From contig VGEU01000013.1 in assembly GCA_016869145.1 (NCBI GenBank), forward strand, positions 1 to 50,542: a DNA stretch of 50,542 nucleotides. Direction: 5' to 3'. Shown piece after piece: positions 1 through 2,713 of this stretch (position 1 is the first letter of the stretch; the number at the start of each line of letters is the position of its first letter). The translations under genes were made by a program, and so were the position numbers. The notes below the pieces were generated by a model. It saw only the letters and a program-made list of their open reading frames with translations. It was not told where the DNA came from and ran no database searches. Origin of the DNA: Alphaproteobacteria bacterium. Its GTDB lineage: Bacteria > Pseudomonadota > Alphaproteobacteria > MPNO01 > VGEU01.

Positions 1-14
1 TCCAGGTCAGTCAT
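1..14 (-). CDS. Third precursor peptide of the array, start only (partial)
   Basis: The ATG lies at complement 12-14, preceded by the same AGGAGG and 127-bp upstream block as the two complete copies. Only the first four codons (MTDL) are in the window; the gene continues off the left edge. By analogy with its neighbours it should encode the same leader followed by another core. Confidence 0.55.
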
Positions 15-107
15 GCAAAGCCTCCTGTCGGTTGTCGTCAGAGCCGGCGCAGGGCCGCACAGCCCGCCGCAGGAGACGGGGGCAGAACTGAACGGCACCG
101 CCTCGAC

Positions 108-275
108 TCAGCGGTCAGCTACTGGTTGGGCAGCAGCAGGCGCACCAGCAGAAAAATGAGAGACGGCAGGGCCGCACACAAGGCAACTCCCCTCCTCCCG
201 ATCGAGCGCCTCGTCGGAGAGTTCGTCGGTGAAGTCGGCGGTCTCGACGTCCGTCGTCATGTCCAGGTCAGTCAT
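108..275 (-). CDS. RiPP-like precursor peptide B (55 aa)
   Basis: The ATG at 275 is chosen because AGGAGG lies six bases upstream and the first 29 codons equal those of precursor A. The leader is acidic and contains DVETADFTDELSDEALDR followed by EEG, in the style of peptide leaders recognised by RiPP-modifying enzymes. The core begins SCLVCGPAVSHFSAG, with a CxxC pair and several Ser residues, and ends in the shared downstream repeat by reading its third frame (QPVADR then TGA at 108-110). No modifying enzyme or transporter for it is visible. RiPP assignment is inferred from leader/core architecture; I did not recognise a named family. Confidence 0.6.
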   Translation of the reverse strand: MTDLDMTTDVETADFTDELSDEALDREEGSCLVCGPAVSHFSAGAPAAAQPVADR

Positions 276-379
276 GCAAAGCCTCCTGTCGGTTGTCGTC
301 AGAGCCGGCGCAGGGCCGCACAGCCCGCCGCAGGAGACGGGGGCAGAACTGAACGGCACCGCCTCGACTCAGCGGTCAG

Positions 380-550
380 CTACTGGTTAGGCGTATTCAG
401 AAACATAGAGGCGTCGGTGAGATCCCCTCGGCAGGAGTGGGAACAGTAAGAAACAGCCATCATCCCCTCCTCCCGATCGAGCGCCTCGTCGGAGAGTTCG
501 TCGGTGAAGTCGGCGGTCTCGACGTCCGTCGTCATGTCCAGGTCAGTCAT
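380..550 (-). CDS. RiPP-like precursor peptide A (56 aa)
   Basis: The start at 550 has AGGAGG six bases upstream. The leader of 29 residues is identical to that of precursor B at both protein and nucleotide level. The core starts MMAVSYCSHSCRGD and continues with Thr, Ser and Asn residues; it has no similarity to the core of B beyond containing two Cys (here CxxxC). It ends with NQ and TAG at 380-382, using the first frame of the common stop cassette. A 23-bp duplication just upstream places an 8-codon ORF (547-573) that overlaps this start by ATGA, so translation may be coupled. Function as a modified peptide is inferred. Confidence 0.6.
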   Translation of the reverse strand: MTDLDMTTDVETADFTDELSDEALDREEGMMAVSYCSHSCRGDLTDASMFLNTPNQ

Positions 551-590
551 GCAAAGCCTCCTGTCGGAGTCATGCAAAGCCTCCTGTCGG
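545..590 (-). repeat. 23-bp tandem duplication of start/RBS region making an uORF
   Basis: The 23 bases at 568-590 repeat 545-567 exactly, so the ATG and AGGAGG of precursor A are duplicated. The extra ATG (573) opens a reading frame of eight codons, MTPTGGFA, whose TGA (547-549) overlaps the precursor ATG (548-550). The other copies in the array lack this duplication. Confidence 0.85.
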
Positions 591-684
591 TTGTCGTCAG
601 AGCCGGCGCAGGGCCGCACAGCCCGCCGCAGGAGACGGGGGCAGAACTGAACGGCACCGCCTCGACTCAGCGGTCAGCTACTGG

Positions 685-858
685 TTCGCAACGCAAACGC
701 GGTTCGCCGCACCTACAACCACGCAGACCACGTCAAGGATCGAGCCCGCGACCGGCGCCGCGGAAGCCGTCTTCTTCTTCGCCCGGCGGGAAGCCGCGCT
801 CCGCGCCTTCGTCGAGCCGCTGATCCGCGCCCAGTTCGCCTGCATCGTCGTCGCGTAG
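685..858 (+). pseudogene. Possible 3' remnant of an unidentified gene
   Basis: Reading from 685 to TAG at 856-858 gives an open frame whose last 40 codons look truly coding (G/C at third positions, RREAALRAFVEPLIRAQF near the end). It has no credible start, and its 5' side abuts the end of the peptide array at 686. I could not assign a family. It may be the tail of a gene disrupted when the array formed, or chance in GC-rich DNA. Confidence 0.25.
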
Positions 859-1621: not shown

Positions 1622-2713
1622 ATGAAAGCGTGGCTCTCCTACGACTTCAACGACATGCGGATGGAAGACGTGCCGATGCCGCACGCCGAGCCCGGCTGGG
1701 TCGTGGTCAAGGTGCGCATGCTGGAGCTGTCGGTCACCGAGGTCGCCGAGTTCCGCGGCCTGCCGGTGTCGAGCCACGCCAACATCAAGCGCATGCTGGC
1801 CGAGAAGCGGCCCTTGCAGCTGTGGGGACACGAGTTCTCGGGCGAGGTGGTCGAGGTCGGCAGAGGCGTCACCAACGTCCGGCTCGGCGACCACGTCTTC
1901 TACCATCGCGGCGTGCCCTGCGGCACCTGCAAGTACTGCACGGCCGGCTATCCGCAATATTGCCGCTCGTGCATCAACGTCGCCGAGGACACGCCGGGCT
2001 GCCTCGCCGAGTTCTTCGCCATCCCGTCGAGCACCATCGTCGCGATCCCCGACGCGATCACCGACATGGAGGCCTGCGCCATGCAGCCCCTCGTCAGCAT
2101 CATGGGCACCGTCGAGGCCGCGCGCATCGAGATGGGCGATACCGTCGTCGTCATCGGCCAGGGGCCGATGGGCCTCGACTGCATGCAGGTCGCGCGCACG
2201 GTCGGCGCCGGCAAGGTGATCGCGATCGCGCGGCGCAACGAGGTGCTGTCGCTGTCCAAGCGCCTCGGCGCCGACATAACGATCAACACGACCGAGATCG
2301 ATCCCGTCGCGGCCGTGATGGACATCACCCGCGGCCTCGGCGCCGACGTCGTGTTCGAATGCGCCGGCGGCGCCAAGGAGCAGGGACATTCCGGCACCGA
2401 CACGATGATGCAGGGCCTCGACATGCTGCGGAACGAGGGCAAGTTCGTCGAGATCGGCTATCTCCCCTAAGACTCCGCCGTTCCGATCGGCGCGATCGAC
2501 AAGAAGGGGCTGCGCATCATCGGCCGGCGCTATCCGTCGCCGCGCATGATCGCCTACGCGATCGACCTCGTCGCCTCGAAGCGGGTGCAGATCGAGCCCA
2601 CGGTGACGCACGTGCTCCGCGGCCTCGACAAGGTGCCGGAGGCCTTCGAGATCACCGGCAACAAGGCGAAGTACGGCGCGGTCAACCCGGCGCAGATCAT
2701 CGTCGCCGAGTAG
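1622..2713 (+). pseudogene. Zinc-dependent alcohol dehydrogenase interrupted by in-frame TAA
   Basis: Medium-chain dehydrogenase of the threonine/sorbitol dehydrogenase type. Visible features are the catalytic-site GHEFSG, the structural zinc cysteines in CGTCKYCTAGYPQYC and the nucleotide-binding VVVIGQGPMG. Codon 283 is TAA (2468-2470). The same frame then continues for 80 more codons with clear family character (DKKGLRIIGRRYPSPRM, then ITGNKAKYGAVNPAQIIVAE) to TAG at 2711-2713. The whole is 363 codons, the usual family length. So either the gene carries a nonsense mutation or the base call is wrong; the short product alone would lack the C-terminal part of the catalytic domain. Start chosen at ATG 1622 from the family's N terminus. 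Confidence 0.85.

Follow-up and report, generated by a model that had tools for sequence, protein, structure and literature searches.

At the left end of an alphaproteobacterial contig, two short genes carry the same leader down to the nucleotide and then continue into cores that have no alignable similarity, which raises the question of what such genes encode, which enzymes would act on their products, and how one leader came to precede such different cores. The array lies on the minus strand within positions 1-686 of the window, by which we mean the whole 50,542-nt stretch of DNA that was analysed. This window is contig C13 of genome G000 (3.93 Mb in 247 contigs, 99.2% complete, 2.7% contaminated), and because it begins at base 1 of the contig, the left side of the array is truncated. 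The features, all on the minus strand, are as follows:

1-127, minus strand: contig-end-truncated copy of the invariant module (cap, intergenic DNA, ribosome-binding site (RBS) and first leader codons), without substitution against 188-388 over its extent
108-122, minus strand: three-frame stop cap GTAGCTGACCGCTGA after core 1, from motif search
108-275, minus strand: precursor gene 1, leader MTDLDMTTDVETADFTDELSDEALDREEG followed by SCLVCGPAVSHFSAGAPAAAQPVADR, from its reading frame; ends at the third cap stop; leader matches profile A3 at 3.5e-13
128-187, minus strand: variable core slot 1, not alignable with core 2; 2 Cys in frame, 7 Cys in frame f2
188-388, minus strand: full 201-nt copy of the invariant module (cap, intergenic DNA, RBS, gene 1 leader), from repeat comparison
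189-275, minus strand: gene 1 leader with the L(X)4L docking motif LSDEAL, identical to 464-550; both Leu invariant in 18 leaders
369-383, minus strand: three-frame stop cap GTAGCTGACCGCTGA after core 2, from motif search
380-550, minus strand: precursor gene 2, leader MTDLDMTTDVETADFTDELSDEALDREEG followed by MMAVSYCSHSCRGDLTDASMFLNTPNQ, from its reading frame; ends at the first cap stop (TAG); leader matches the profile
389-462, minus strand: variable core slot 2, not alignable with core 1
463-686, minus strand: copy of the invariant module carrying a 23-nt tandem duplication, with cap, intergenic DNA, two RBSs and the gene 2 leader; no leader lies upstream of the cap
546-591, minus strand: 23-nt tandem duplication of RBS and start codon (546-568 and 569-591), by direct sequence reading
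667-681, minus strand: three-frame stop cap GTAGCTGACCGCTGA belonging to the leaderless slot with which the array ends on the right, from motif search

The anatomy of the array is directly visible, and the unit that repeats is larger than the leader alone. The invariant module spans AACCAGTAGCTGACC, the intergenic DNA, the RBS and the leader up to its end at GGGGA, and its three copies show zero substitutions over up to 201 nt. Repeat comparison returned a 131-nt family with three members (1-131, 262-392 at 99%, and 560-690) and a 105-nt family with two members at 100% identity (188-292 and 463-567), and the 87 nt of leader DNA, which encode the common 29 residues, are the same in both genes. 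The two cores differ by 14 nt in length and are terminated in different frames, with core 1 running beyond its AACCAG end to PVADR and a stop, and core 2 closing with NQ and a stop. As the 201 flanking nucleotides are unsubstituted, drift cannot account for wholly different cores of unequal length, while replacement can. GC content is 61% and 52% in the cores, 66% in the module and 70% in the window.

An earlier note, made from sequence alone, had claimed nucleotide-identical leaders before unrelated cores, and the repeat comparison and the failed core alignment bear this out, as the GC values do for its claim that the cores are AT-richer. Its claim of at least three tandem genes holds only in part: there are only two whole genes; the contig end truncates the left copy, and the rightmost module, with no leader upstream, is just a leaderless slot. 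We found no second place for the window cores in the genome. A leader-like stretch on contig C89 (84% over 37 nt) was rejected as a chance match within an unrelated long gene, apparently CoA-ligase-like, and mis-binning of the contig was likewise rejected, given its compositional correlation with the genome (r 0.998) as against only 0.92-0.95 for Reyranella-type loci. Outside the array, the window carries a zinc-dependent alcohol dehydrogenase gene (1622-2713, plus strand; Pfam ADH_N and ADH_zinc_N) with an in-frame TAA at 2468-2470, after which the frame reopens to 2713, reflecting either a pseudogene or a sequence error.

The leader defines a family that extends beyond this genome. Upon running a degenerate pattern for ELSDEALDR against 84,980 species genomes, a search that the earlier note had proposed, we recovered chance matches in ordinary proteins and one coherent family of short genes in other Alphaproteobacteria, each with a leader resembling MSEMEMKTEAEVEDFTDELSDEALDRAEG followed by a short core with Cys, Ser and Thr. 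The leader (…FTDELSDEALDR) occurs in arrays of about ten other alphaproteobacterial metagenome-assembled genomes (MAGs), labelled Reyranella, Enhydrobacter, Rhodoplanes, Asaia or unclassified Alphaproteobacteria, both as tandem arrays and as dispersed copies, and the leaders nearest to those of the window are 66-79% identical. A profile built on 18 leaders was run on 15 chosen genomes and found between 1 and 45 copies in each, with G071 and G072 the weakest and marginal. The family is rare, because only 4 of 385 genomes sampled across the class, the window's genome counted, were positive; within the order to which the window belongs, the leader was not found in the 26 other genomes, nor did a plasmid search with leader and DNA return anything. 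Pfam and NCBIfam models matched no family in the window precursors up to an E-value of 10.

Genome G063 (JADHSZ; loci L142, L143, L066, L086 and others), a 95%-complete MAG without a YcaO or LanC match, holds 45 precursors with the related leader MPKTDIKKIESEDLKELSDEALDR, dispersed among housekeeping genes on more than 10 contigs, with cores that mostly end in SPAE or APSD. On a 4,796-nt contig (L139, G067:C86), precursor pairs sit at both ends in opposite orientation, and two different module types occur there within one genome. A near-identical transposase/integrase-like frame opens array-bearing contigs of two different genomes (L132, 3-683; L144, 2-553), which may merely reflect repeats ending contigs. 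Finally, L012 (contig WLNV01000227.1) is filed under an Actinomycetota MAG and is probably mis-binned, since both its array and its DNA resemble the Reyranella type.

On their far side, the cores abut a second fixed element. In a side-by-side reading, they run into the 15-nt motif GTAGCTGACCGCTGA, which offers TAG, TGA and TGA, one stop per frame; the probability that a random 15-mer carries a stop in every frame is 0.0002-0.001 at 50-65% GC. This cap is specific to the arrays: it was found with at most one mismatch in 10 of the 15 genomes, with perfect matches on leader-bearing contigs, while a reversed control gave only isolated matches. All three stops are in use: among 24 leader-cap pairs (including a few orthologous pairs), 16 cores enter the cap and terminate at stop 1, 2 or 3 in 3, 7 and 6 cases, the remaining 8 ending earlier. 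Hence, core length is free modulo 3 and not tied to one frame. Some cap variants keep the stop (TAG to TAA in G073, TGA to TAA in G062, G070 and L012), and three others lose one stop. As the cap is conserved beyond its stop codons as well, stop selection is not the sole possible cause of the conservation. A conserved hairpin behind the cap (ACCGC...GCGGT) was considered and dropped, as visual inspection supported it in roughly half of the modules only and one spaced pattern gave zero matches. Viral contigs yielded 28 exact cap matches, of which only L093 is a known array and the others were not inspected; in a collection so large, a number of this order probably reflects chance for a 15-mer.

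Comparison of relatives shows that cores are indeed replaced. G062 and G069 share DNA that is 97% identical over 3.2 kb between an M1 peptidase gene and the first leader, yet behind that leader the core is ANACGTGPGNTGACNC in one genome and AAVVSSMRCA in the other, with a length difference of 16 nt that changes the cap stop in use. Conversely, the G063 core ACLTYVICHGPCSSPA is present on two contigs with one mismatch in ~50 nt, behind leaders that are ~80% identical and ahead of unrelated DNA. These two cases, a swapped core at an orthologous locus and one core behind two leaders, indicate that cores move independently of leaders, and they support the earlier note's proposal of module replacement over slow drift. 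Homologous recombination within the shared flanks would be the simplest mechanism, which we infer. The replacements were seen in relatives, not among strains of the window's own species.

The cores are enriched in cysteine in the frame set by the leader (13.4% against 4.6% in shuffled sequence, with 0 of 2000 shuffles as high). In 6 of 25 cores, however, another frame, always f2, contains at least three Cys and more than the leader frame, where 1.3 such cores were expected from mononucleotide shuffles (p 0.0015) and 2.4 from codon shuffles (p 0.007). Core 1 of the window is of this kind, with frame f2 (128-188) reading LPCVRPCRLSFFCWCACCCPT with 7 Cys against 2 in frame, a count that shuffles of core 1 reach in some frame with p 0.0001; similar out-of-phase Cys-rich frames were seen in L175, L180 and L133. 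Because the threshold was picked after looking, we regard this excess as a lead and not a result. It fits cores that change frame with respect to the leader, a shift that the cap would permit, or plain decay. General dual coding of the cores was rejected, as stops are not depleted in the other frames.

What chemistry these precursors undergo is suggested by their neighbours in relatives. At L008, L014, L018 and the extended loci L132-L138, a protein of ~765 residues is encoded near the precursor genes. Scans of two copies gave matches to TIGR03604 (SagD family), TIGR03882 and Pfam YcaO (PF02624), and in a search of PDB sequences one copy aligned over its full length, paired CxxC motifs included, with the cyanobactin heterocyclases TruD and LynD (E 1e-142 to 1e-140). 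Other neighbours vary by genome and include a SagB/ThcOx-like dehydrogenase, an AurF-like protein (oxygenase), an M1 peptidase (G062, G065 and G068) and an ABC transporter (G068 and G074). The leader, in turn, carries L-SDEA-L, an L(X)4L motif whose two Leu are conserved without exception in 18 leaders; PatE docks on the leader-binding domain of LynD via such a motif, and MprC needs it too (PMC12455567). Relatives thus present hallmarks of azol(in)e peptide (TOMM) systems, with a precursor-linked YcaO cyclodehydratase that has a leader-binding partner domain, a SagB-type dehydrogenase, and short precursors with a conserved leader and a variable core rich in Cys, Ser and Thr. SagB-type FMN dehydrogenases are frequent, though not universal, in TOMM systems. 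Given the TruD/LynD-like cyclodehydratase, the neighbouring enzymes in relatives and the L(X)4L leader, azol(in)e peptide precursors are the best reading of these genes. The earlier note had called them RiPP-like and left the family unrecognised, adding that the absence of modifying enzymes near the array in every relative would refute it; the enzymes are present in relatives, and the family can now be placed among TOMM systems with a cyanobactin-type cyclodehydratase.

Known systems resemble the array only in part. Cyanobactins (PatE/TruE with TruD/LynD) share a cyclodehydratase homologous over its whole length in relatives, the L(X)4L leader motif, and hypervariable cassettes in a conserved genetic background (PMC4663559). 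They differ in that the array leader has 29 residues, the family resides in Alphaproteobacteria in dispersed arrays with a three-frame stop cap, and no PatA/PatG-type proteases were seen among the precursor neighbours, the only genes scanned for them. The array would work like the cyanobactin heterocyclase step, yet we do not class it as a cyanobactin, because its core runs to the stop without flanking C-terminal recognition sequences. NHLP/Nif11 TOMM precursors (including MprE1-10 with MprC) likewise combine many paralogues, variable cores, the L(X)4L motif and one YcaO enzyme, sometimes distant, whereas their leaders are long, structured, nitrile-hydratase- or Nif11-like and end in Gly-Gly, in contrast to a short leader unmatched in NCBIfam and Pfam. 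Hypervariable cores are known from cyanobactins, NHLP and Nif11 precursors (PMC4603692, PMC4663559, PMC2887384). Prochlorosins (ProcM with many ProcA) similarly pair one promiscuous enzyme with many variable-core precursors, but rely on lanthionine chemistry and Nif11 leaders; a lanthipeptide assignment was rejected, since no LanC-like domain was found in the window's genome, nor in 9 of 10 other genomes, G074 being the exception. As regards an integron cassette array, the repeated module includes a coding leader (integrase lay outside the search). The criterion for a diversity-generating retroelement was unmet, as the cores are unalignable, of unequal length and without a second genomic copy (reverse transcriptase lay outside the search). 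The leader string had no match in the open-access literature searched, and neither the leader family nor a three-frame stop cap beside RiPP cores was found described there, which, given the limited search, is weak evidence of novelty.

We consider it likely that the array encodes short azol(in)e-peptide (TOMM/LAP) precursors whose cores are exchanged as cassettes. With a fixed leader, capped cores and a matching ring-forming enzyme in relatives, it looks like a natural plug-in cassette system. The leader segment ELSDEAL would dock on the leader-binding domain of the TruD/LynD-like YcaO cyclodehydratase, which would cyclise Cys, and perhaps Ser and Thr, of any core placed behind it; the SagB/ThcOx-like dehydrogenase would oxidise the rings, and trimming and export of the product would probably fall to the M1 peptidase and the ABC transporter. 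Recent duplication or conversion may keep the module (cap, intergenic DNA, RBS and leader) uniform; recombination in the flanks that the copies share would swap cores as cassettes, and the conserved cap would terminate each core whatever its frame. Chemistry, docking, the mechanism of recombination and selection on the cap are all inferred.

Against this reading, no product is known, and the window's own genome has not been shown to encode a modifying enzyme. There, a search with the relatives' cyclodehydratase gave no match, nor did a Pfam YcaO search, though its controls were positive, or searches for the SagB-type dehydrogenase and the AurF-like protein. YcaO was also not found in G061/G153 (~100% complete, 8 leader matches) or G063/G099 (45 leader matches). 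Arrays tend to break assemblies, with 13 of 18 related array loci lying at most 1 kb from a contig end where 3.4 were expected, and an enzyme cluster to the left of base 1 may therefore have been lost from the assembly. That the window's genome holds the enzymes beyond the contig end is an inference, and their action there is inferred from relatives only.

The rival that survives best is an orphan or decaying array, in which TOMM precursors were received or kept while the enzymes were lost or never present, the copies being relics of recent duplication. In its favour are the YcaO, SagB and AurF-like genes not found in a 99%-complete assembly, the leader's absence from the 26 other genomes of the order, the leaderless slot, and a core 1 that is Cys-richer out of phase; against it, leader, RBS and caps are intact, and the contig-end position is that of the 13 related loci, where the enzyme cluster often lies. 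We regard it as unlikely, although it cannot be excluded. Less credible still is that in genomes lacking YcaO a different class of enzyme, radical SAM or another, serves the same kind of precursor: G063 and G061, with their many leader matches, speak for it, whereas most genomes with the closest leaders (66-79%) have YcaO, and a LanC-like domain is absent from G000, G061 and G063 (radical SAM lay outside the search). It is very improbable as well that the first 0.7 kb are an assembly artefact or a chimeric join. The array does start at contig base 1, where repeat assembly fails, and is too short for a composition test, but the same architecture recurs in other species, in assemblies made independently and also within contigs, the modules are separated by distinct cores, and the rest of the contig matches the genome.

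The cassette reading of TOMM precursors admits a bolder version, which we put forward only as a possibility: a frame-agnostic core-cassette system, in which the cap is selected so that any DNA arriving after the leader becomes a terminated precursor. Cores would then be taken up, swapped or shifted in frame, perhaps at the G-run where leader and core meet, and one slot could give different peptides.

Overall, the analysis names an alphaproteobacterial precursor family that had gone unrecognised and has no database model, and links it to a cyanobactin-type cyclodehydratase. In addition, it provides a testable anatomy for RiPP core exchange, in which the core lies between a fixed leader and a three-frame stop cap. 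Should the cap prove functional, core length and frame could vary freely while termination is retained, and core turnover at the strain level would become measurable. Were the bolder version true, these bacteria would possess a built-in device for peptide innovation, with one promiscuous cyclodehydratase serving all the peptides.
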